NCBI GenBank assembly: GCA_900770015.1
Contig: CAAGIU010000103.1
Coordinates: 1 to 13,647 of the forward strand
Source: an uncultured Oscillospiraceae bacterium
GTDB taxonomy: Bacteria > Bacillota_A > Clostridia > Oscillospirales > Oscillospiraceae
Length of the DNA stretch: 13,647 bases
Direction of reading: 5' to 3'
Shown here: positions 1,172-13,647 of the stretch, in pieces
Layout of the letters: each line of letters begins with the position of its first letter
How positions within the stretch are numbered: position 1 is the first letter of the stretch
Translations under genes and position numbers: made by a program
The notes under the pieces: model-generated
What the model saw: the letters and a program-made list of their open reading frames with translations, nothing else
Databases searched by the model: none
What the model was told of the DNA's origin: nothing

Positions 1172-3361
1172 ATGAAGAAACACACAAGATCGGTCTTCGC
1201 CCTTCTTCTGGTCGTGCTGATGGCAGTTGGCATGATGCCCTTCGGGGCATTTGCCACGGACACAGGCACCGACCCTGCGGAGGTGACCGAAGAACCTATC
1301 GAGCCGGAGGTTCCTTTATCGGAGGAACCGACTGAGCATGACATTACGGAGCCCGTCGAGGAATCCGATATTGAAGTGCCGGCGGAAATCCAGTTGGCCA
1401 CTCGATATTCGGCGGGCAGCAACATTACCGTCTATAACTATTTTCATGCGTTTTTCGTCATCTCGGAAATGAACTGCATCGACGGTTCCCCGTTCCTGAC
1501 GAGCAAATCGAGCTGGCCCGGCGACAGCCCCTCCGACTGGGGTTCCTGCGGCGGCAAGTACGATCTGTTTTACTGCATCGACTTCTATGCACATGGAAAT
1601 GCCAATGGTGCAACCACAAAGCCCGGAACTCCGCTGGAAGAAACCCCGGCATGGAAAGCAATTTCCAGTGCCGGAAAGAAGGGCATTCAGCTTGCACTGA
1701 TTTACGGTGTTCCCAACTGCAGTTCCTACTATGACAATGTGTACGGCTATGAAGCGACGCAAATCATCATCTGGGAATACCAGCTTGGTGTTCGCACCGA
1801 TGCAAGTCAGACAGTATCGTTCTTCAACACAACTCTTGGCAAGTATCCCAAGATCAAAGAAGCCTATGATGCGATCCTGTCGAATATCAAGCGCCACCAG
1901 ACGGAACCCAGCTTTCACGGGCAGACCGTTGAGCTGAAAAACATTGGTGAGACTTATGCCGTTACCCTGACCGATTCCAACGGGACATTCCAAAATGACC
2001 AGTGGAGCATTGAAGGAACGCATCCCGGTGTTGAAGTTCGGCAGAGCGGCAACAATCTGAAGGTCTGGGCAACTGCTTACGGCGGCGAGGTAGACATCAC
2101 CTTGAAGCGAAAGCTGAACATTGCAACCGGCAACGCCCTGTGTGCCTTTACCGGAGAGCAGAGCTGTGTCACCGGCGTGGCAGATGACCCGTTGTTCGCA
2201 AAGCTGACCGTCAAGCTGCCGTCTACGGGCAAGCTGAAAATCGTCAAAACGGCTCCCGATGGCATGAATAAGTCCAATATCCGCTTTGACATCTATGAGG
2301 GATACACCAATCTGTCCGAAGGCAAGGTCTTTGCCTCCGTCTACACCAACGCTGACGGCGTAACCTATGCGGACGGTCTGATTGCAGGAAAGAACTACTA
2401 CGTCCGTGAGATCGTGCCGGAGAATAGCAAGCAGAAGCCCGATTGGACGATTTCCGGGGCAGAGAAAAGCGGCACAAGTGCAGATGTGGCATGGTTCACC
2501 GCCGTTGCAGGCAGTACCATCCAAATCAACTGCACCAATGATTGGGACTACGGCTCCGCCGAAATCACCAAAGTCACAGACGATGGCAAAAACACCGCCA
2601 ACCGTGTGTTCTACCTTTATGACGGTTGGAGCAACTACGAAGCGGACAAGCGGTTCGCAGAACTGACCACCAATGCAGGCGGCAAAGCGACTGTAGCAAA
2701 GCTGATCCCCGGCCATTGGTACTACCTCGTGGAAAAGACCTTCCTGCCTGCCGAAGATCAAATGCCCGTATGGGAAATCACAGGCGCGGACGATTGGAAG
2801 ATGTCCGACAGCGGCGGTACTCGAATCGCTGTGTTCAAGGTTTCTGCCGGCGGAAAGCTGAATATCGTTTGCAAGAACCACCTGTTGCCCACTGGGAAGA
2901 TTACTGTGGAGAAATCAAAAGAGGGCGGAACACCGCTGACTCAAACCACGTTCCTTTTGGAATATTCCAAGGATGGTACGACATGGAAGCCTGTGGAATT
3001 CAGTGCAGGCCAATTCTTTGTTGGTTGTTGTTCCAGCCCCAGCCTCGACAACGGCACCTTAACCACCGATAAAACCGGTTCTGTCACTTTTGACGGCTTA
3101 GCCATCCAGGATGTAACCTACCGGCTGACGGAAGTGAAATCTCAAGACGGCAAACAGCTTATGGCAGAAATCCTCTTTGAAGGTTCTCTGACGGAGGATA
3201 AGGAAATCACCATCCGTGCCGTCAACAACGAAGTATTCCTGTTGCCCTTCACCGGCTCCAACGGATTCATGACCGCAACAATCAGCATTCTTGTGATGGG
3301 TGCCGCATTGCTGGCGGCCTTTTTTACTCTCCGAAAGAAAACTCACAACACTACCGACTGA
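1172..3361 (+). CDS. LPxTG pilus tip adhesin with thioester domain and SpaA-type domains
   Basis: This is a secreted, sortase-anchored adhesin of 729 residues. The signal peptide ends at about AFA (26-28) and is followed by an acidic Glu/Pro/Thr region. Residues about 84-240 match a thioester (TQXA) domain: Cys135 in FYCID and Gln197 in ATQIIIWE are the expected pair that forms an internal thioester, which in this family can bond covalently to host targets. Three SpaA/CnaB-like Ig domains follow (about 352-455, 460-568, 573-686), each beginning with a Lys strand (IVK, ITK, VEK) and ending with a Glu strand (REI, VEK, TEV) suited to isopeptide bonds. The sorting signal is LPFTG (691-695), a hydrophobic segment and RKK. 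I chose ATG 1172 because GGAAGGAG precedes it and the signal peptide follows directly; an in-frame ATG at 1100 would begin before the terminator. It is first in the pilus operon and most likely the tip protein. Confidence 0.88.
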   Translation: MKKHTRSVFALLLVVLMAVGMMPFGAFATDTGTDPAEVTEEPIEPEVPLSEEPTEHDITEPVEESDIEVPAEIQLATRYSAGSNITVYNYFHAFFVISEMNCIDGSPFLTSKSSWPGDSPSDWGSCGGKYDLFYCIDFYAHGNANGATTKPGTPLEETPAWKAISSAGKKGIQLALIYGVPNCSSYYDNVYGYEATQIIIWEYQLGVRTDASQTVSFFNTTLGKYPKIKEAYDAILSNIKRHQTEPSFHGQTVELKNIGETYAVTLTDSNGTFQNDQWSIEGTHPGVEVRQSGNNLKVWATAYGGEVDITLKRKLNIATGNALCAFTGEQSCVTGVADDPLFAKLTVKLPSTGKLKIVKTAPDGMNKSNIRFDIYEGYTNLSEGKVFASVYTNADGVTYADGLIAGKNYYVREIVPENSKQKPDWTISGAEKSGTSADVAWFTAVAGSTIQINCTNDWDYGSAEITKVTDDGKNTANRVFYLYDGWSNYEADKRFAELTTNAGGKATVAKLIPGHWYYLVEKTFLPAEDQMPVWEITGADDWKMSDSGGTRIAVFKVSAGGKLNIVCKNHLLPTGKITVEKSKEGGTPLTQTTFLLEYSKDGTTWKPVEFSAGQFFVGCCSSPSLDNGTLTTDKTGSVTFDGLAIQDVTYRLTEVKSQDGKQLMAEILFEGSLTEDKEITIRAVNNEVFLLPFTGSNGFMTATISILVMGAALLAAFFTLRKKTHNTTD

Positions 3362-3378
3362 GAAAGGATTTGATAACG

Positions 3379-5286
3379 ATGAAGAAACTCTTTGCTATGT
3401 TCATGGCACTTGCCATCTGTCTTTCTATGCTCCCTGCCGCCTTTGCCGCCAGCCCTGCGGATGCCGTCATTGACGTTGACCGCCTCTGCTCCATCGACCT
3501 GTATAAGTACGACCTGACTTCCGCCGAAGCAGACGGCGTGTGGGACAACAGCTATGTATCCACCGGCACCTATGACAAGCCCGGTGTCAACGACATTCTG
3601 GGCAATCCCAACCGTGTCGTGGATTTGGGAAACGGCGAGGTGTCCTACGGCTACGCCATCCGCGGCGTGGAGTTCACCTATGCCCGTGTTGCAGACATCT
3701 ATCAATATGTCGGCAGAACACAGGATGGGACGCTCGTTGCCAAGGTGCTCTATGGTTTTGACAACATGGAACTGCTTTCTGCGCTGGGCTTGACCAGAGA
3801 AAACCGCTTTGCTCCCGCCGACCATGACGGCAAGCTGTATTTCACCGCTGACACTCTGCTCACCGCCCTGCGCAGTGCTCTGGAAACCAATGCCACCGGC
3901 ACGAAGAATGCGCTGGAAAGCATCGTCAAGACTTCCGGCACCGCCATGCCCGAAACTGACAGTTACGGTCATTCCGAAGCAAAGAACTTGCCGGTGGGTT
4001 TGTATCTGGTGGTCGAAACCCGTGTTCCCGAAATGGTCACGGAAACCACCGCACCCTTCCTGCTGAGCCTGCCTATGACCACCGTGGACGGTACACAGTG
4101 GATGTACGATGTCTGCGTCTACCCCAAAAACGGCACTTCCAACCCTGATCTGACCAAAACTGTCCGTGAAAGCAAGGAATCTACCGGCAAGAACGGCGGC
4201 ACCGGGATGATTGATGATGGCTTTGACCATACGGCAACCGCCTCTGTCGGTGATGTCGTGGAATACCAGATCCTCTCCCGTCTGCCCGCCATTACCTCCA
4301 AGGCTTCCTATCTGACCACCTACACCTTCGAGGATACCATCTGCAAGGGAATCCTGTACAACCGCAATGATGTGGTTCTGGAATTCTTCCGTGACGCCGC
4401 CTGCACGGACAAGATCGCAACCTGGAACGAGGGTGACGGAAACTTTGGCGTGGGCTATGTATCCAACGAGGACGGCACTTCCGTTATGGCCATCACCATG
4501 CAGGAAAACGGTCTGAAGGAAATCAACCAGTCCACCGCCGTCCATAACGGCACCCATGAATCCGGCTACTCGCAGTGCTATCTCCGCATTACTTACTCTG
4601 CCACTCTCACAGAAGATGCTGTTCTGGGCAACACCTCCAACGATAACGAAGTCGTTCTGACCTGGAAGCGCACCAACACCGCGTATTACGACACGCTCAA
4701 GGACTGCTGCCATGTCTATGTCTACGGCGTCGATCTGGAAAAGCAGTTCTCCGACGATGAAGGGAACTTTGAGAAGGTGCAGTTCACCGTCTGCAACGAC
4801 ACCGACAGATGCTATGTGACTGCCGAGTTGAAAGACGGCATCTACTATGTCACCGGCACTGCCGAGGAAGCCAATGCCACCCGCTTTGTTCCCAACGAGG
4901 ACGGTCACATCCGCATCAAGGGCATGGAGGACGATGCCTATATCTTTACCGAAGTCCAGACCGATGAAGGGTACACACTCCTGAAGGACAGCATTCATAT
5001 CACCATTACCGCTGACGGCAGAGGCGAATACTGCAACGCCTGCGGCATTGAACTGCTGACCGCGTCCGCCACCGTGGACGGCAACGCCGTGCAGATGGAA
5101 GAAGACGACAGCTCTGTTTCTGCCATCGTCCCGTTGACCGTTGTGAATACCAAGGGCTTTGACCTGCCCCAGACCGGCGACAACGGTGTTTGGATGTACG
5201 GCGTGATCGGCATTCTGGCTATGGCTGCCTCTGTCGGCACCATTGTCATCGTCTGCCGCAAGAAGAAACCTGCTGAAAACGAATAA
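3379..5286 (+). CDS. LPxTG backbone pilin with isopeptide D2 domain
   Basis: This is the major pilin of a sortase-assembled pilus, 635 residues long. The signal peptide ends near AFA (21-23). The N-terminal shaft domain ends in the pilin motif VYPKN, whose Lys250 should be the nucleophile joined to the next subunit. A middle domain (about 255-450) resembles the fimbrial isopeptide-forming D2 domain. A last Ig-like domain (about 450-592) carries an E-box-like stretch, YIFTEVQTDEGY, with Glu525. The sorting signal is LPQTG (596-600), a membrane helix and CRKKK. The start is ATG 3379, which begins MKKLF and has AGAAAGGA at a workable distance; TTG 3370 would sit almost on that site. It lies 17 bases after the adhesin gene, so both should share a transcript. 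Codons are strongly C/G-ended, as in a highly expressed gene. Confidence 0.9.
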   Translation: MKKLFAMFMALAICLSMLPAAFAASPADAVIDVDRLCSIDLYKYDLTSAEADGVWDNSYVSTGTYDKPGVNDILGNPNRVVDLGNGEVSYGYAIRGVEFTYARVADIYQYVGRTQDGTLVAKVLYGFDNMELLSALGLTRENRFAPADHDGKLYFTADTLLTALRSALETNATGTKNALESIVKTSGTAMPETDSYGHSEAKNLPVGLYLVVETRVPEMVTETTAPFLLSLPMTTVDGTQWMYDVCVYPKNGTSNPDLTKTVRESKESTGKNGGTGMIDDGFDHTATASVGDVVEYQILSRLPAITSKASYLTTYTFEDTICKGILYNRNDVVLEFFRDAACTDKIATWNEGDGNFGVGYVSNEDGTSVMAITMQENGLKEINQSTAVHNGTHESGYSQCYLRITYSATLTEDAVLGNTSNDNEVVLTWKRTNTAYYDTLKDCCHVYVYGVDLEKQFSDDEGNFEKVQFTVCNDTDRCYVTAELKDGIYYVTGTAEEANATRFVPNEDGHIRIKGMEDDAYIFTEVQTDEGYTLLKDSIHITITADGRGEYCNACGIELLTASATVDGNAVQMEEDDSSVSAIVPLTVVNTKGFDLPQTGDNGVWMYGVIGILAMAASVGTIVIVCRKKKPAENE

Positions 5287-5295
5287 CTGACGATT

Positions 5296-5332
5296 GGGGG
5301 CTGTCCGCAAGGGCAGTCCCCGAAAGGGGGAC
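5296..5332 (+). promoter_or_regulatory. paired alternative hairpins at the sortase ribosome binding site
   Basis: The pilin-sortase gap can form two hairpins that exclude each other. Hairpin A pairs 5296-5306 with 5311-5321: 11 bp including two G-T wobbles, closed by a GCAA tetraloop. Hairpin B pairs GTCCCC (5316-5321) with GGGGAC (5327-5332) around GAAAG. B buries the Shine-Dalgarno GGGGG (5326-5330) of the sortase gene, while A leaves it free. No T-run follows, so it is not a standard terminator. Hairpin A could also block 3'-exonucleases and keep pilin mRNA more abundant than sortase mRNA. The pairing is seen; the regulation is inferred. Confidence 0.55.
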
Positions 5333-5335
5333 GAT

Positions 5336-6187
5336 ATGAAGAAGAAAATCATGATTGGCGTGTTGATCCTTGTATTCCTGCTGGCTTTGGCCAGTACGCT
5401 TTACCCGGTGATCAGTGACTACTGGAACACCAGGCACCAATCCGAAGTGCAGGTGGAGTACGAAAAGCAGATGGAATCCATGGAGGATGCCGAGCTGGCC
5501 GCCGCTTTGGAAGCCGCCAATGCCTATAATGCGGCACTTCGCCCGGTGCGGTACACCAAAGCGGCTTTGGATGCTGCGGCTGTCGGTTATGACGATTTGC
5601 TGAACCTCTATGGAAACGGCGTAATGGCCTATGTGGAGATTCCCAAAATCCATGTGAATCTTCCAATCTATCACGGTACGACCACAGAAGTGCTGGAAAA
5701 AGGCATCGGGCATCTGACCGGATCTTCTCTGCCCATCGGCGGTGTGGACAATCACGCTGTTCTGACAGGGCATTCCGGTGTAGCCGGACAGCGGCTGTTT
5801 TCCGATCTTGACCAACTGGAAATCGGGGATGTCTTTTTCATTCATGTGCTGAATCAGCAGCTTGCCTACGAAGTCAGAGCCATTGACACAGTTCTGCCGG
5901 AGGACACCAAGCTCCTGACCAGCGTAGAGGGAAAGGATAAATGCACCCTTGTTACCTGCACCCCCTTCGGGGTCAACACCCACCGCCTGTTGGTGCAGGG
6001 AGAGCGCATCGAGTATGAGGCCGCAGAGGAGATCGCCGCACAAACCGAATCCGTACAAGTGGAATCCACGTGGGAAACGCAGTATATCATGGGTCTGAAA
6101 TTGGGGGCAGAAATCCTCGGCTTCCTCGTTGTTGTCGTCCTTGCGGTGATCGGTATCCGAAAAATGCGGAGGCATGGACATGATTAA
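5336..6187 (+). CDS. class C (pilus-polymerising) sortase
   Basis: This membrane-bound transpeptidase has 283 residues. It should cleave LPxTG between Thr and Gly in the two upstream pilins and link Thr to the pilin-motif lysine of the next subunit. Visible parts are an N-terminal membrane helix (5-23), a helical linker, the sortase beta-barrel from about 96, catalytic His146 in LTGHSG, Cys208 in TLVTC, Arg217 in THRLLVQG, and a C-terminal membrane helix (256-276) ending in basic residues. Two membrane spans plus the TLxTC-TPxG and HRLLV motifs point to class C. I see no canonical lid motif (DPW/DPF) before the barrel. The start at ATG 5336 has a G-rich ribosome binding site (5326-5330) and gives MKKK followed directly by the membrane helix; the in-frame extension from 5294 lies in the hairpin region. 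Confidence 0.92.
   Translation: MKKKIMIGVLILVFLLALASTLYPVISDYWNTRHQSEVQVEYEKQMESMEDAELAAALEAANAYNAALRPVRYTKAALDAAAVGYDDLLNLYGNGVMAYVEIPKIHVNLPIYHGTTTEVLEKGIGHLTGSSLPIGGVDNHAVLTGHSGVAGQRLFSDLDQLEIGDVFFIHVLNQQLAYEVRAIDTVLPEDTKLLTSVEGKDKCTLVTCTPFGVNTHRLLVQGERIEYEAAEEIAAQTESVQVESTWETQYIMGLKLGAEILGFLVVVVLAVIGIRKMRRHGHD
6168..6172 (+). promoter_or_regulatory. Shine-Dalgarno that decides the second sortase start
   Basis: GGAGG inside the end of the first sortase gene is 7 bases from ATG 6180 but only 1 base from ATG 6174. This favours MIKKIL over MDMIKK as the true N-terminus and creates an 8-base overlap with the upstream gene. Confidence 0.6.
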
Positions 6188-6893
6188 GAAGATCTTGATT
6201 GCTCTTTGCGTGTTTGTATTTCTTATCGGCGCAGGCGTTTTCCTCTATCCATCCTTCCGCACCGCCGCACAGAAGCAGACCGCACAAGCAGAAATTCAAC
6301 GCTTTGAAAATGCGATTCAAGAACAGCACGAACAGGCTGAAGCAGGAACGAAAGAAGAAAGAATCTATCCCGACCTGTGGGAAGCCTGCTGTGCCTATAA
6401 CCGAAATCTGTATTTGACGAAGCAGGAAAGCTGGACGGAGGAAAATCAGAAAAAGCCTGCCCTGAATCCGGCAGACTTTGGCTATGCGGAATCGTGCTTT
6501 GCCTGTCTCTCCATCCCAGAGCTCGGCATGGAGTATCCCATCTATCTGGGAGCAAATTCGGAGAATCTCAATCAAGGTGCTGCCCACTTGGGACAGACCT
6601 CCCTGCCCATCGGCGGCGAGAACACCCATTGCGTCATCGCCGGACACCGAAGCTGGTCCGGTGCCGTCATGTTCCGAGGGCTGGAAGAACTGACGGAGGG
6701 CAGTACAATCTACATCACAAATCCCTGGGAAACGCTGACCTACACCGTCCAAAGCGTACGGACGGCAGACCCGAAGAAATCAGACGAATTGACTATTCAG
6801 GAAGGATGTGACCTTCTGACCATTTTCACTTGCAGTTATCCCAATACCCGACGACTGATCGTCACTTGCGAAAGGAGTGATCCGCTTGACTGA
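6180..6893 (+). CDS. second sortase, single N-terminal membrane anchor
   Basis: This is a sortase of 237 residues with an N-terminal membrane helix (about 4-22), a charged helical linker (30-60), and a sortase barrel from about 105. Catalytic residues are His156 in IAGHRS, Cys218 in TIFTC and Arg225 in NTRRLIV. It resembles the class C catalytic core but lacks the C-terminal membrane helix of its neighbour and ends soon after the Arg strand. The usual His before the catalytic Arg is Arg here. A likely role is wall anchoring of the finished pilus, or joining the tip adhesin to the shaft, while the first sortase polymerises. Its start overlaps the first sortase gene by 8 bases and its end overlaps the next gene by 8 bases, so translation is probably coupled across all three. 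Sortase identity is firm; the class and exact step are not. Confidence 0.88.
   Translation: MIKKILIALCVFVFLIGAGVFLYPSFRTAAQKQTAQAEIQRFENAIQEQHEQAEAGTKEERIYPDLWEACCAYNRNLYLTKQESWTEENQKKPALNPADFGYAESCFACLSIPELGMEYPIYLGANSENLNQGAAHLGQTSLPIGGENTHCVIAGHRSWSGAVMFRGLEELTEGSTIYITNPWETLTYTVQSVRTADPKKSDELTIQEGCDLLTIFTCSYPNTRRLIVTCERSDPLD
6871..6877 (+). promoter_or_regulatory. Shine-Dalgarno that supports a TTG start
   Basis: AAAGGAG lies 8 bases before TTG 6886. The in-frame GTG at 6877 overlaps this site and ATG 6901 is 23 bases away, so TTG is the best-placed start for the next gene. Confidence 0.55.
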
Positions 6894-8109
6894 AAAGCGA
6901 ATGGAAATCATTGCACTGCCCAAAGCACAGCGCCTTTACACTTACGCCAACAGCCAACAGATTTCCATGCAAACCGGGCTGATCGGTCATCTGAGAGCAG
7001 ATTTCGGGGGCAATGGGAAGCAGTTCTTTTCAAGCTTTTTTGACTTCCGGAAAGATCTGAAATCGGACGCATTCAAGGACGAAATCAATACCGTCTTTGA
7101 TTTTCTCAGGGAAGGCAGCCGCTATGTGGATAAGAACGGTGCAGAAATCCGCGAACACGATTTCCTTCGATTTGAGGATGGAACAGAGAAAGAGGTTTTC
7201 CGCCTGCAAGACGGCTCCCTGGGCATTTCGGTTTCCAATCCTGCATATCTTGCGGCACATCCGAATGCGGAAGAGTATTATTCCACGCTTTCCGGGTGGG
7301 CTCCGGATGGCGGCATCAAGAAAGTCACCGATGGGGCGGTCGATTTCGCGCGCCGTCCGAACCGGCAGGAGAAAGCGTATGTCTCCTGCGGGAGCGTACT
7401 GAAAAGCCGTTCTGCGCTTTCAGCTTTCTGCGCCGCTCATCCCGAATGCGGCTTTGCGGGCAATTACACCCAAGAGTTCGGCATCCGTGTGAACACGCCG
7501 GACTATGCCTACCTGCTGCGTCTGAATCCCACCAAAGGTGACTATAACATTTACTGTTATTGCTACCGCCGTGATTGGCTCGATCACCACTTGCAGCAGG
7601 CGCAGAAGGGCATCCGCTTTATTACACCCAATTACCAGACGCTGTTCACGCTTGCTGACGGGGATCAGGTTCGCATTCTGAACGCACAGGGCGGCTGTGA
7701 GGATAAGACCGTCCGGTATGTGGATGATTATCATGCGGAAATCGGCATGAATCTGTACCATATCTGCGAATTTGCAGAACGCATGGAGCAAGCCGGAAGC
7801 AAAGGGCTGATTCCGCTCCGGGCGTCCCTGCCCGACAAGTGCTGCAGCACCCTTTTGGAGAACGGGAAAGTGGTCATTCTGAAAAAGGGAGAAACCGGTT
7901 ACTACACGACGGATATTCCTTTCACGTCCAGGGAAGAAGCACAACGCATTGTGGATGAGCAGAACAGCCGGCTGGGTGTAACCAAGGCGCAGGAGGCTGC
8001 TATGAAAGCCGGCTCCATGTTTGGCTTTGCAGTTCCCGCCGCCGATCCCAAAAACTACGATGAAAACGGCATCCCGCTGGGTCGCAGGGCACAGAATCAC
8101 GAAAGATAG
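6886..8109 (+). CDS. accessory conjugative-element protein, function unknown
   Basis: This is a soluble protein of about 407 residues with no signal peptide or membrane segment. I do not assign a function. Three parts can be seen. An N-terminal module begins MEIIALPKAQRLYTYAN and includes FFDFR and a stretch ending VFDFLR. A middle module contains a Cys-poor hydrophobic core with YAYLLRLNPTKGDYNIY, then YRRDWLDHH and KGIRFI. A C-terminal region carries a repeat-like ILKKGETGYYTT and an Ala/Lys-rich tail. From memory, proteins with this middle module recur in Firmicutes conjugative elements next to the giant methylase/helicase gene, which fits the context here. TTG 6886 is preferred for its spacing from AAAGGAG. 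The gene overlaps the second sortase by 8 bases, so the pilus operon appears to read on into conjugation genes. Confidence 0.75.
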   Translation: MTEKRMEIIALPKAQRLYTYANSQQISMQTGLIGHLRADFGGNGKQFFSSFFDFRKDLKSDAFKDEINTVFDFLREGSRYVDKNGAEIREHDFLRFEDGTEKEVFRLQDGSLGISVSNPAYLAAHPNAEEYYSTLSGWAPDGGIKKVTDGAVDFARRPNRQEKAYVSCGSVLKSRSALSAFCAAHPECGFAGNYTQEFGIRVNTPDYAYLLRLNPTKGDYNIYCYCYRRDWLDHHLQQAQKGIRFITPNYQTLFTLADGDQVRILNAQGGCEDKTVRYVDDYHAEIGMNLYHICEFAERMEQAGSKGLIPLRASLPDKCCSTLLENGKVVILKKGETGYYTTDIPFTSREEAQRIVDEQNSRLGVTKAQEAAMKAGSMFGFAVPAADPKNYDENGIPLGRRAQNHER

Positions 8110-8450: not shown

Positions 8451-11400
8451 ATGCCGAGCAAAAAACAGACCGTGATTGCGCTGGTATCCGAGGAAATCCG
8501 TTCGACCATGTCCTCTCCCAGCCGATATATGGACTTTCTGGACACTGCCGCTCAAAACTACAAGTACAATTACCGTGAGCAGGTTTTGATTCACGCACAG
8601 AAGCCCGATGCCACTGCCTGCGCCGACATTGAAACTTGGAACAAGCTGGGGAGATGGGTCAACAAAGGCACCAAGGGCATTGCCCTGTTGGTAGATCGTC
8701 CGCCTGTCAGTCTGCGGTATGTGTTCGATGTTTCCGATACCAACTCCCGTGCCGGACGAGAAGTGAACTTGTGGAAACTGATGCCCAGGCATGAAGCTTC
8801 CGTCATGGAATCACTGGAAAACGCCTATGGTGAACTGAATGCCGACGGGTTTTTTCCCTCTGCGGTGATGGCAGTTGCTGACCGAATTGTAGAGGACAAC
8901 TTGCCCGACTATTTTGCCATGCTCAAGGAACAGACAGCAGGCAGCTTGCTGGAGGAACTGGACGAGGACAATCTGCGGCAGTGGCTCAAGCAGCCCTTGC
9001 AGGCCAGCGTGGGTTACATGATTCTTGCTCGCTGCGGCTATGCACCCCGTGATTTCTACGGTGCAGAGGACTTCGCCCACATCATGGACTTCGACACGGA
9101 GGACACGGCCTCCGTTCTTGGCGATGCCGCCAGCCGAATGGCAGAGGGCGTCCTGCGGGAGATTGCCACAACTGTCCGTTCATTGCAAAAAGCGGAGCGG
9201 GCAGAGAATCGCACATTTGCGGAACCCGCAAAAGAGAAGTACAATGATGCCGGAACAAAAACCATTGAAAGGAGCAAGGAACATGGAACTGACTTACAAG
9301 CAGGCGGGCGATTATCTGATTCCCGACTTGGAGCTGCCGGAAAACCCGAGGGTGGGCAAATTCGGGATGCTGCGGCAGACCTTCCTGCGGGAGCATCGCA
9401 GCCCGATCTACACGGGGATGCTGTTCAGCGGCAAGCTGAACCCCCATCTGGAGGAAATCGACCGGCAGGCCAACGAGATGCTGGATCGCCTGATCTGCCA
9501 GATGAAGCAGGAACAGGGCGTGACCGAGAAGCTGAAGGCAGAGAATCAGATGCTGTGGGTTCAGAGGATGAACAACATCCGCAACGCAGCGGAGGAGATC
9601 GTCCTAAAGGAACTGATCTACAGTTAAGCGGTCGAAACGGAGACCTGAGGTGGGAAGTTGAGTATTTCTATCAGGACGAGGAAAAGAACGAACTGCTCAG
9701 AACCTGTGAAAAACTGAATAGCCATCGCATGGAAATTGCCGCATTCTTTGCATCCCAACCGGATGAAAAAGAACGCGGCAATTTTGTTAAGAGCTTCTTT
9801 GATAATACCTTTATTGAGCAGATTCTGGAAAGCGGTCAGCGTGTGGGCTACCGCGCCTATGACGATATGCTCCATCTGTGGCGCGGCTCGTACCTGAGCC
9901 GGGAGCGAGAGGAATATCTGCTGTGGCCGTCTGTGGCCAGACGCATTGAGGGCATGATCCTCATGAATCAATGGCTTGCTCCGGGCGAGGTGGTATTCCC
10001 CACAGAACAGCAACAAAAAGAACAAATCCTTTATGCAAAATCAAAAAACGGAATTGGCTTTGCTCTGCCCCAAGCGGCTGTGGACTATGTACTCACCCAC
10101 GGCACAGGCGTCGAACATGGGAAATTCGGCGTGTATGAGTTCTTCACTCAGAAGAAAACTCCCATCGACAATATTCGCTTTCTCAAGGAGGCCTACGGAA
10201 TCGGCGGTCACTCGGATGCCATACCCGGCACCGGTTTGTGGGAAGATCACGATGGGAAGGGAATCTCCATTTCCCGCTTGAATGCCGGAGAGAAAGCAAG
10301 TGTCCTGTTGTCCTGGAGCATGGTGGAAAAACGGATTCGGGACCTCATTGCCACCGACCGCTATCTGACCAAAGCGGAGAAGGCGGAATACCCCAGGTAT
10401 CTGGCAAATCAGCAGGCACGGCAGGAGCGTGGTGCGGTTGCGGATGAAGTCAAATCCATCATCACGGACTATAACGATTTCCAAACTCAGCTTGGCAACA
10501 CGAACGCTGTGCTGAATCAATATGTCCTGTTCTCCTGCATATCCAGCCTTTGCACTGGCGAAAAAACCACATGGACGCTGACGAAGGATAACTATGTTCT
10601 GCCCTTGCTCCGTGGGGCCTTACAGACCATCATTGCAGAGAAAACGCACCTTACCGAGCGAGCCGAAACTGCTTTGGAAAAGCTCAGTCTGCCTCTGTTT
10701 GCACCCTTGGAGCCGACCTACGATGAACTGAATCCACCGCCCGAACCGCCGAAGGAATATAGGCTCAGTCTGGGAGATACGATTTTCCTCGGAACCCACG
10801 AATACGATGTTCTGTCCCTTGGGGAACAAACGGTGGTGCTGTACGACACGGAGTTTCCCATTTTCAATCAGGAGATACCCACCGCCGAATTTTATGAGAA
10901 GCTGGCTGAAAACCCGCTGAATGACAAGTACCTTCAACCTGTGGAGCCGCTGACCGCAAGTTCCTCCACACCGGTGGAAGAAACTGCCAACGAAGCGGAA
11001 CAGGAAGAACCGACTGATGAGGAACTGAATCAGCATCCCATCAGTGTTGTGGAGAATGGCAAGGTTTTCACATATCCCAATGCAGAGGCAATGATGGAGG
11101 CAGAACCCCTTTCTGCACCGCCAATGCTCCCAAAACGGAAAGCCGCTCCCAACATCCTGCACCCCGAAATCACCAACCGTCGGAACCATCGAATTCTGGG
11201 GGACGATTTGGGTGTTGGCACACCTTCGGAACGTTATTCCCGCAATGTCATGGCAATTCGTCTGCTGAAAAAGCTGGAAGCCGAAGGAAGATTGGCGACT
11301 GAACTGGAACAGGACATTCTTGCCGACTATGTAGGCTGGGGTGGTCTGGCAGACTGCTTTGACGAGCGAAACAGCCACTATTCGGAACTGAAAGACCTCT

Positions 11401-13586
11401 TGACGGAGGAAGAATACGCGGCGGCCAGAGAATCCACTCTGACCGCTTTTTTCACGCCGCCTGTGGTTATCAAGGCGATGTATCAGGCACTCGCCAACAT
11501 GGGCTTCCAGACCGGCAACATCTTGGAGCCCTCCTGCGGTGTCGGCAACTTCATGGGTCTGCTCCCCGAAAGCATGAGCAGTTCCAAAATGTACGGCATT
11601 GAGCTGGACAGTGTTTCCGGCAGGATCGCCCAGCAGTTGTATCAGCACAACAGCATTGCGGTGCAGGGCTTTGAGAAAACCGACCTGCCCGACAGCTTCT
11701 TCGATGCGGCCATCGGCAATGTCCCCTTCGGACAGTTCAAGGTGCCCGACCGCCGTTATGACAAGCACAACTTCCTCATCCACGATTATTTCTTTGCCCG
11801 AACGCTGGACAAGGTTCGTCCCGGCGGTGTCATTGCTTTCATCACTTCCAAGGGCACGATGGACAAGGAAAACCCTTCCGTCCGCAAGTACATTGCCCAG
11901 AGAGCCGACCTAGTTGCCGCCATTCGTCTGCCCAATAACACCTTCAAGGAGGCCGCAGGCACGGAGGTCACTTCTGACATTCTGATTCTGCAAAAGCGGG
12001 AATCTCTCATCGACATGGAGCCCGATTGGGTGCATCTCGGTGTGGATGCCAACGGGATCAAGATGAATCAATATTTTGTGGATCATCCCGACATGATTAT
12101 GGGCGAGATGCAAATGGTCAGCGGCCCCTACGGTCCCGAAAGTGCCTGCATCCCCTATGAGGGGCAGGAGCTGTCCGACCTGCTGGCAGATGCCGTGGCA
12201 GGCATCCACGGTCAAATCACCGAATACGATGTGCAGGATGTGTCGGACGATGAGGAAGACCACTCCATCCCCGCCGACCCGACGGTTCGCAATTTCAGCT
12301 TTGCATTGGTGGACGGCAAGGTGTATTTCCGTGAAAACTCCCGCATGAATCCTGTGGAACTGACCGTCACCGCCGAAGGCCGTGTGAAGGGCATGATTGC
12401 CATCCGGGATTGTGTTCGCCAACTGATTGAATATCAGACCGAAGATTACCCGGGCAGCATAATCGAGGCAGAGCAGGAAAAGCTGAATACCCTGTATGAC
12501 GAGTTCGAGAAGAAATACGGGCGAATCAACTCCCGTGCCAACAATTCCGCTTTCCGGGACGACAGCAGTTACTATCTGCTGACCTCTCTTGAAGTTACCG
12601 ATGATGAGGGCAAGTTTATCCGCAAGGCGGATATGTTCACAAAGCGGACGATTCGCAAGAAGGTCATTGTAACCACCGTGGATACCGCTTCGGAGGCTTT
12701 GGCTCTGTCACTGGCTGAAAAAGCAGGCATTGATATGCCCTATATGCAGTCGCTGACGGGCAAGACAGAAGAACAGCTTGCCGAAGACCTCCGCGGCGTG
12801 ATTTTTCTCAATCCCGAACACCTATCCGAAAATGACAGCCATCCCAAATATCTTCCTGCGGATGAATACCTCTCCGGCAATGTCCGGGAAAAGCTGGCGT
12901 TGGCGCGTCGAACCGCCGAACTCTACCCGGAGGATTACGCCCCCAATGTGACCGCATTGGAGCGGGTACAGCCGCAAGACCTGACCGCCAGCGAAATCTC
13001 TGTCCGTCTGGGTGCCACATGGCTTCCCGAAGATGTGATTGCCGACTTCATGTTTGAGCAGTTGAGCACACCCCGATACGCCCGCTGGAACATCAAAGTC
13101 CATTACTCGCCCATTACCGGCGAGTGGAACATTGAGGGCAAAAACTACGACCGTGGCAATGTCAAAGCCAACAGCACCTATGGCACCGAACGCATTAACG
13201 CCTATAAAATCATGGAAGAAACCCTCAATCTGCGGGATGTCCGTATCTTCGACTATTTGGAGGACGGATATGGCAAAAAAATTGCTGTCCTCAACAAAAA
13301 GGAGACCGCCATTGCACAGGGCAAACAGGAGCTTCTCAAGCAAGCATTCCAGGACTGGATTTGGTCTGACCCGGAACGCAGAGCAAGGCTGACTGCCCTC
13401 TACAACGAGAAATTCAACTCCAACCGCCCCCGTGAATATGACGGCAGTCACCTCAATTTTGTGGGCATGAACCCGGAAATCAAGCTGCGTCCCCATCAGG
13501 TCAATGCCGTGGCACACATCCTTTATGGCGGCAATACGCTGCTTGCCCATGTGGTCGGCGCAGGGAAAAGTGCGACACGTTCGTAA
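8451..13586 (+). CDS. giant DNA methylase/SF2 helicase of conjugative element, interrupted
   Basis: 1711 codons are seen, with the 3' part missing. Residues 1-80 resemble the ArdC-like single-strand DNA binding domain of mobile-element proteins (ADIETWNKLGRWVNKGTKG). Residues about 278-392 are low complexity because they overlap tnpV in another frame. Residues 400-920 hold LPD/YodL-type accessory segments of uncertain role. The methylase core includes YVGWGG, motif I LEPSCGVGNF (1025-1034) and motif IV NVPFG (1090-1094), typical of N6-adenine methylases of this family. A helicase begins at LRPHQVNAVAHILYGG and reaches the P-loop VVGAGK (1701-1706). The coding exon appears to end at 13569; codons 1707-1711 and the stop at 13584 belong to an inserted group II intron. 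Family members continue as GAGKT plus the rest of the helicase. TAGGAGG precedes ATG 8451 by 6 bases. It probably processes or protects element DNA during transfer. Confidence 0.88.
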   Translation: MPSKKQTVIALVSEEIRSTMSSPSRYMDFLDTAAQNYKYNYREQVLIHAQKPDATACADIETWNKLGRWVNKGTKGIALLVDRPPVSLRYVFDVSDTNSRAGREVNLWKLMPRHEASVMESLENAYGELNADGFFPSAVMAVADRIVEDNLPDYFAMLKEQTAGSLLEELDEDNLRQWLKQPLQASVGYMILARCGYAPRDFYGAEDFAHIMDFDTEDTASVLGDAASRMAEGVLREIATTVRSLQKAERAENRTFAEPAKEKYNDAGTKTIERSKEHGTDLQAGGRLSDSRLGAAGKPEGGQIRDAAADLPAGASQPDLHGDAVQRQAEPPSGGNRPAGQRDAGSPDLPDEAGTGRDREAEGRESDAVGSEDEQHPQRSGGDRPKGTDLQLSGRNGDLRWEVEYFYQDEEKNELLRTCEKLNSHRMEIAAFFASQPDEKERGNFVKSFFDNTFIEQILESGQRVGYRAYDDMLHLWRGSYLSREREEYLLWPSVARRIEGMILMNQWLAPGEVVFPTEQQQKEQILYAKSKNGIGFALPQAAVDYVLTHGTGVEHGKFGVYEFFTQKKTPIDNIRFLKEAYGIGGHSDAIPGTGLWEDHDGKGISISRLNAGEKASVLLSWSMVEKRIRDLIATDRYLTKAEKAEYPRYLANQQARQERGAVADEVKSIITDYNDFQTQLGNTNAVLNQYVLFSCISSLCTGEKTTWTLTKDNYVLPLLRGALQTIIAEKTHLTERAETALEKLSLPLFAPLEPTYDELNPPPEPPKEYRLSLGDTIFLGTHEYDVLSLGEQTVVLYDTEFPIFNQEIPTAEFYEKLAENPLNDKYLQPVEPLTASSSTPVEETANEAEQEEPTDEELNQHPISVVENGKVFTYPNAEAMMEAEPLSAPPMLPKRKAAPNILHPEITNRRNHRILGDDLGVGTPSERYSRNVMAIRLLKKLEAEGRLATELEQDILADYVGWGGLADCFDERNSHYSELKDLLTEEEYAAARESTLTAFFTPPVVIKAMYQALANMGFQTGNILEPSCGVGNFMGLLPESMSSSKMYGIELDSVSGRIAQQLYQHNSIAVQGFEKTDLPDSFFDAAIGNVPFGQFKVPDRRYDKHNFLIHDYFFARTLDKVRPGGVIAFITSKGTMDKENPSVRKYIAQRADLVAAIRLPNNTFKEAAGTEVTSDILILQKRESLIDMEPDWVHLGVDANGIKMNQYFVDHPDMIMGEMQMVSGPYGPESACIPYEGQELSDLLADAVAGIHGQITEYDVQDVSDDEEDHSIPADPTVRNFSFALVDGKVYFRENSRMNPVELTVTAEGRVKGMIAIRDCVRQLIEYQTEDYPGSIIEAEQEKLNTLYDEFEKKYGRINSRANNSAFRDDSSYYLLTSLEVTDDEGKFIRKADMFTKRTIRKKVIVTTVDTASEALALSLAEKAGIDMPYMQSLTGKTEEQLAEDLRGVIFLNPEHLSENDSHPKYLPADEYLSGNVREKLALARRTAELYPEDYAPNVTALERVQPQDLTASEISVRLGATWLPEDVIADFMFEQLSTPRYARWNIKVHYSPITGEWNIEGKNYDRGNVKANSTYGTERINAYKIMEETLNLRDVRIFDYLEDGYGKKIAVLNKKETAIAQGKQELLKQAFQDWIWSDPERRARLTALYNEKFNSNRPREYDGSHLNFVGMNPEIKLRPHQVNAVAHILYGGNTLLAHVVGAGKSATRS
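9268..9274 (+). promoter_or_regulatory. internal Shine-Dalgarno for the embedded tnpV
   Basis: AAAGGAG lies 8 bases before ATG 9283, well inside the giant gene. A near-ideal ribosome binding site placed exactly before the only frame-shifted start with a family match supports real translation of the embedded gene. In the giant gene's frame the same bases encode part of IERSKEHG. Confidence 0.65.
9283..9627 (+). CDS. tnpV: TnpV-family protein embedded in another frame of the giant gene
   Basis: This 114-residue protein starts MELTYKQAGDYLIPDLELP and ends EEIVLKELIYS. I recognise the pattern as TnpV, the small transposon-encoded protein found in Tn4451-like and other clostridial mobile elements. 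It is soluble, with a short N-terminal beta/loop part, a basic middle (GMLRQTFLREHR) and a long helical C-terminal half (about 54-112) that may form a coiled coil. Its molecular role is not established. It lies wholly inside the methylase/helicase gene in a different + frame, has its own ribosome binding site (9268-9274), and ends at TAA 9625. The host protein's sequence over this stretch is Gly/Asp/Arg/Pro/Ala-rich and disordered, as expected if the tnpV frame is the constrained one. An in-frame extension upstream to 9025 is shadow sequence. Confidence 0.8.
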   Translation: MELTYKQAGDYLIPDLELPENPRVGKFGMLRQTFLREHRSPIYTGMLFSGKLNPHLEEIDRQANEMLDRLICQMKQEQGVTEKLKAENQMLWVQRMNNIRNAAEEIVLKELIYS

Positions 13587-13647
13587 CTGAAAAGGTTACG
13601 CACAAGTCAGCTAACAATAGAATCGGGAATTTGAAAGGAGTCCCTGA
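13570..13647 (+). mobile_element. 5' end of a group II intron inserted in the helicase P-loop codon
   Basis: The helicase frame is conserved up to GGG AAA A at 13569, then turns into GTGCGAC and meets a stop within 17 bases. GTGCG is the group II intron 5' consensus (GUGYG). The next bases form a hairpin, CGTAAC (13582-13587) with GTTACG (13595-13600), and a second short stem, GGGA (13625-13628) with TCCC (13641-13644), as expected for the start of domain I. The insertion follows the first base of the Thr codon of GKT, so splicing to a 3' exon starting CN would restore GKT. Any reverse transcriptase and the 3' half lie outside the window. A simple frameshift or assembly end is the alternative. 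Confidence 0.7.

Follow-up and report, generated by a model that had tools for sequence, protein, structure and literature searches.

The ICEs of Streptococcus suis carry, according to the extracts of PMC12479173 used here, four intron families, each with its own conserved motif. Two of the S. suis sites lie in the ICE helicase, at the motifs DNMLXI and WRPXDXX, and the same extracts argue that the full-length VirB4 and coupling protein need splicing. A group II intron has also been reported in snf2 (PMC9815147, in extract), and another, called IIA, in the SNF2/DarB-like helicase gene of Streptococcus phage phi-SgaBSJ31_rum and of a bacterial relative (PMC12350094); the latter paper, as far as its extract goes, sets the record MT836027 aside as an apparent ICE. 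In Tn1549-like vanB2 elements, a 2588-bp group II element lies between nucleotides 5014 and 5015 of Tn1549, and its 610-aa protein is described as sharing 99% identity with a protein from F. prausnitzii A2-165 (PMC4143159, in extract). Group II introns showed, in the extract of PMC2814812, no preference for conserved sites in the genes analysed there. Our literature search, which covered the titles and the beginnings of the abstracts of open-licence papers, showed no intron site in a Walker A motif among those listed, a coverage that does not establish absence from print.

We analysed a stretch of 13,647 nucleotides from an uncultured Oscillospiraceae bacterium (hereafter the window), which very probably ends inside a mobile group II intron inserted at GK|T of an ICE methyltransferase-helicase gene, as judged from its relatives. 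The intron would have entered the Walker A Thr codon between its first and second bases; it is about 2.8 kb long in complete relatives, where it encodes a reverse transcriptase/maturase. Aided by the maturase, the intron RNA would splice out and restore GKT in the mRNA. Retrohoming would then have the excised RNA, together with its protein, reverse-splice into uninterrupted alleles, guided by an EBS1 that pairs with bases held nearly constant by the protein sequence.

The interrupted helicase gene

The helicase frame of the window (8451-13586, forward strand, 1711 codons) has the C-terminal end ...NTLLAHVVGAGKSATRS, followed by the stop. The initial annotation had described it as family-like through HVVGAGK and then turning abruptly into GTGCGAC and a stop, with GGAAAA at 13564-13569 as IBS1. 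These positions are correct, since HVVGAGK is followed by SATRS and the stop and GTGCGAC begins at 13570, and the junction is common to the relatives. The features of this region are the following.

8451..13569, forward strand: 5' exon, N6-methyltransferase/SNF2-type helicase through the first base of the Thr codon (PF02384; homologue P0002)
13548..13569, forward strand: Walker A codons HVVGAGK and base 1 of the Thr codon (GAGKT in intron-free relatives)
13564..13569, forward strand: candidate IBS1, GGAAAA, pairing with the EBS1 column of the relatives' domain I (EBS1 itself would lie past the window)
13570..13647, forward strand: probable group II intron, first 78 nt, 5' end GTGCGAC, cut by the window end (identity with relatives)
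13570..13586, forward strand: unspliced read-through, SATRS and stop (an ending shared by 49 of 120 listed homologues)

The N6-methyltransferase domain (PF02384) occupies residues 988-1184 of the window gene. The protein P0002 (2496 aa) is 98% identical to the gene's last 312 residues across 99% of their length and reads on as GAGKTYEM at the site, with SNF2 and Helicase_C domains downstream, and the window gene is thus no longer family-like past the Walker A lysine. Intron-free relatives, P0002 included, read GAGKT here. From the junction (13569|13570) to the end of the window there are 78 bases. The GTGCG at 13570 agrees with the 5' end GUGYG of mobile group II introns; it is a common 5-mer that proves nothing by itself, and the case for an intron is a comparative one. 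An Rfam scan of the window alone returned no family match, because in the relatives the domain-I model matches from intron base 88 on (in L006, from position 453 with the intron starting at 366), and the window holds 78.

In one relative (L035), genes for a topoisomerase III and a MobA/VirD2-type relaxase are found close to the split gene, which makes its host a conjugative element; the same setting would follow for the window by kinship with relatives of this type. The left part of the window (1172-6893) is a pilus operon, with a thioester/SpaA-domain protein, a SpaH-type pilin and two class C sortases. Pilus operon and conjugative-element helicase share one contig.

Recurrence of the junction and complete introns in relatives

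The first 35 nucleotides of the intron were found in 17 public genome contigs by an exact scan, which detects only near members of a single intron lineage. In 15 of the 17 they follow H-x-V-G-A-G-K and one further base, that is, they interrupt the same Walker A Thr codon; the remaining two (L002 and L015) sit in other genes. The 78 intron bases of the window are identical at 77 positions in L006, and at 76 each in L003 and L017. The C-terminal end GAGKSATRS recurs in 49 of 120 homologues (the best 120 of 7987 scored). Two plasmid records and two faecal 'phage' records match the window's last 148 bases up to query base 68-70 only, the proposed junction lying after base 70 of this query; the same exon junction is uninterrupted in OY725868 (L019, a plasmid record) and in MT835870 (L020, a faecal one). 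Of the 17 contigs, at least five (L004, L005, L008, L013, L016) stop no more than 125 bases past the intron start, as judged by the lengths of contigs and loci, which fits a repeat that assemblers fail to cross and may be the reason why the window stops where it does.

Among viral contigs, an exact 42-nt scan and a search with the Walker B pattern found none, and the sole viral-contig match to the junction pattern (L018) was dropped, the frames listed after it being unlike helicase or intron protein. Sequences distantly related to the first 335 bases of the intron occur in 117 plasmid records, 112 of them from Enterococcus, with 60-80% identity in 107. At several of the plasmid matches listed, the matching sequence underlies a CHAP or tail-lysozyme-like gene.

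Both intron ends are present in nine copies, which are 2757-2811 nt long and end in AT before CN-T[AT][TC]-GA. In eight of them the helicase continues downstream as T[FY]E[MI], with GKT restored; the ninth (L011/L039) has a non-helicase 3' flank and was not counted as a resumed helicase. Domain I (RF02004) was detected in all ten loci scanned, at 170-198 bits, and domain V/VI (RF00029) in nine, the tenth being L002, which holds just 1.7 kb past the intron start. For the L006 domain V/VI, the folding energy is -49.5 kcal/mol versus -31.0 for shuffles (z -6.3). A single intron frame of 628-642 codons between stops is found in seven Walker A copies; the maturase frame of the L001 intron is broken by a stop, and the L015 intron is without a maturase-sized frame. 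The intron protein of L003 matches TIGR04416 at 338.8 bits (cut-off 300) and RVT_1 at 141 bits, and the solved structures that it matches include GsI-IIC RT and LtrA; an HNH match, at 13.6 bits, is below the cut-off of 21.4. A YADD box is readable in this protein. Thus the reverse transcriptase, the domain V/VI and the 3' exon opening with CN and resuming the helicase (as TFxM in the prediction, as T[FY]E[MI] in the relatives), all predicted in the initial annotation, were recovered in the relatives. The outcomes that would have spoken against an intron, namely a downstream sequence lacking reverse transcriptase or domain V, or a frame resuming after a few bases, are absent there.

Target recognition, occupancy and spread

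We aligned domain I of 13 introns (ten from Walker A sites, and one each from the methyltransferase part, RadC and the L002 gene) and scanned 625 columns for EBS1, with no position chosen beforehand and G-U counted as a pair. The best column scores 17.0 and the next best 11.7 (mean 6.3 and sd 2.1 over the 625 columns), the top score being the sum of a Walker A mean of 5.0/6 and of 6/6 each for the methyltransferase-site (L034) and RadC-site (L015) introns. The L002 intron pairs at 3/6 in this column; it was left out of the sum, and it fails as an extra guide-target pair. Introns at Walker A have UUUUAC as their guide, with UCUUAC in L012 and L045, in keeping with the earlier expectation of an EBS1 near TTTTCC (TTTTAC or TCTTAC in the relatives' domain I); the proposed IBS1, GGAAAA, pairs with it at five of six positions. 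Nine of the ten Walker A introns, scored singly, give 5/6 each, and L006 has the same guide in the alignment. The lone mismatch is at base -5, where the Gly codon has its wobble base; base -2, the wobble position of the Lys codon, faces U or C of EBS1. As read from this pairing, the guide rests on codon positions kept fixed by the protein, and selection may have placed it there. EBS1 base 2 is C in two of the ten Walker A introns, which both have G at -2, and U faces A or G; as evidence of covariation these cases are too few, and they are confounded by a possible flanking GTAA/TTAC stem. For EBS2-IBS2, no column stood out in the aligned introns at six offset/length settings.

The nearest genome in the collection searched (G001) has no match to the window's last 200 bases or to the helicase gene, and a sample of its phylum gave 0 occupied sites in 398 genomes; the F. 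prausnitzii APC923/51-1 genome carrying L003 (G399) was therefore taken as the centre of the survey. The site is occupied in 3 of 197 genomes of its family and, in a class-wide sample, in 2 of 391, G399 being one of the two. A 160-aa protein query across the site matches 55 of the 197 family genomes. Its 76 rows comprise 68 stretches that cross the site at 43-88% identity (one with an internal stop, one probably frameshifted), five rows for three split sites, and three further rows, which are either end pieces that stop short of the site or the second half of a stretch included in the count. In G399 itself, one copy is split and three are uninterrupted. The site is thus common and its occupation rare. 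The suggestion that an invariant ATP-binding motif would offer the intron a site in every related element holds insofar as many related elements have the site, but it is seldom filled (3 split versus 68 in the family of G399).

We then compared 1 kb of intron with the final 300 5'-exon codons at nine loci (36 pairs, non-independent). The introns of L006 and L046 are 96.1% identical, with 68% identity of exon residues and 42% at fourfold sites; the corresponding values are 94.8%, 55% and 35% for L003/L006, and 97.7%, 89% and 58% for L010/L011. Over all 36 pairs, fourfold identity averages 31%, versus 27% expected from composition, hence silent sites are close to saturation. Introns 96% identical in helicases with 42% fourfold identity imply horizontal movement into one site, and the extreme pairs require movement of the intron between divergent alleles to the same base. 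Intron similarity correlates weakly with exon-residue similarity (Spearman 0.38, 36 non-independent pairs), so some co-inheritance may remain.

Other sites are interrupted in the same gene. L034 has a second, ORF-less intron at 6225-7584 (1360 nt; RF02004 170.7, RF00029 62.1 bits), which lies in the methyltransferase part and interrupts, after its first base, an Ala codon that follows DYFF. A further group II intron, with a 632-codon frame inside, follows DEAHEFKN in Ruminococcus albus (locus L037/L053).

L053, about 12003-9236, minus strand: Ruminococcus albus group II intron (RF02004 49.4, RF00029 55.4 bits)

Helicase similarity returns near the end of this second intron and is lost about 50 residues later; five of 120 listed proteins (the best of 7987 scored) end at the same DEAH-box position. 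A further 15 of the 120 listed homologues (P0058 among them) run through Walker A unbroken and end past SPEG in YTLVGR-like tails; L006 is broken at this residue too (PEGYNF; L006:3840-3998). The cause may be an integrative element in snf2, of the kind described from S. suis. Elsewhere, an ORF-less intron with the same 35-nt start splits RadC at HNH|PSG in Enterococcus lemanii (L015), and in an Oscillospiraceae MAG (L002) an intron with this start follows a 5' exon ending in FDCSG, presumably an NlpC/P60 motif. The 177-aa piece of the L002 5' exon had no Pfam family match.

One might speculate that a single intron lineage of conjugative elements behaves much like a homing intein, settling on the codons of catalytic or invariant motifs by re-tuning its EBS1, the Walker A guide sparing the Gly wobble base. 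We put this forward tentatively, and think it somewhat less probable than its negation. It would cover the helicase Walker A, the methyltransferase motif, the HNHPSG of RadC and the DCSG motif; and with a guide on fixed bases and the Gly wobble unpaired, nearly any related element would be a target.

Alternative explanations and comparison with known systems

The change in the reading frame sits 78 bases from the window end, where assemblies often fail, and it might be argued that it arose by frameshift, or through chimerism or misassembly at the contig end. Such an accident is hardly credible, as 15 genome contigs share the junction, 49 of the 120 listed homologues have this ending, and eight relatives carry complete introns with a resumed helicase; the recurrent junction and the complete introns rule it out as the whole explanation. 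An intron that has lost the ability to splice, leaving the helicase a pseudogene, is unlikely rather than incredible. The stop in the L001 maturase frame and the decay of the L053 helicase after its second intron could be read in this way, and the window copy, known from 78 nt alone, could be incomplete, its completeness being presumed from its relatives. However, long helicase frames are open past the intron in L035, L036, L038, L001 and L046, and near-identical introns in divergent hosts point to recent mobility of the lineage.

We regard as improbable, still more so than a dead intron, that the intron is a switch tuning transfer, with the unspliced transcript giving a methyltransferase-only protein and the spliced one the full enzyme. 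The unspliced frame does retain the methyltransferase domain and stops five residues past the Walker A lysine, but the 68 uninterrupted sites against 3 split ones indicate that the elements manage without the intron. With a mobile, splicing group II intron at GK|T as the preferred reading, it is plausible that in split copies helicase activity, and so transfer, would depend on splicing, as the initial annotation proposed. Many seemingly truncated ICE helicases in databases are then likely to be intron-split genes.

Group II introns in ICE helicases are already known from S. suis, and the Walker A GK|T site would be an addition to them: a sharply defined, widespread homing site at an invariant ATPase codon, and a natural series for comparing guide and target codons across very divergent hosts. 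Like the S. suis ICE introns, as described in the extracts of PMC12479173, the intron takes a conserved motif of the ICE helicase as its target; unlike those at DNMLXI and WRPXDXX, it is inserted in Walker A, the comparison being one of sites and not of intron sequences. One protein of the helicase family studied here (P0049) also has DNMLLI and WRPSDLQ. The phi-SgaBSJ31_rum case is similar by description (PMC12350094, in extract), in that an SNF2-type helicase gene is hit and related introns lie in homologous genes, and MT836027 is 69.8% identical to the intron studied here over query bases 91-335. The vanB2 element is likewise comparable by description, not by sequence, as an insertion in a Tn1549-family element (PMC4143159, in extract). 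Should the homing-intein-like behaviour be true, it would contradict the lack of preference for conserved sites reported in the extract of PMC2814812.
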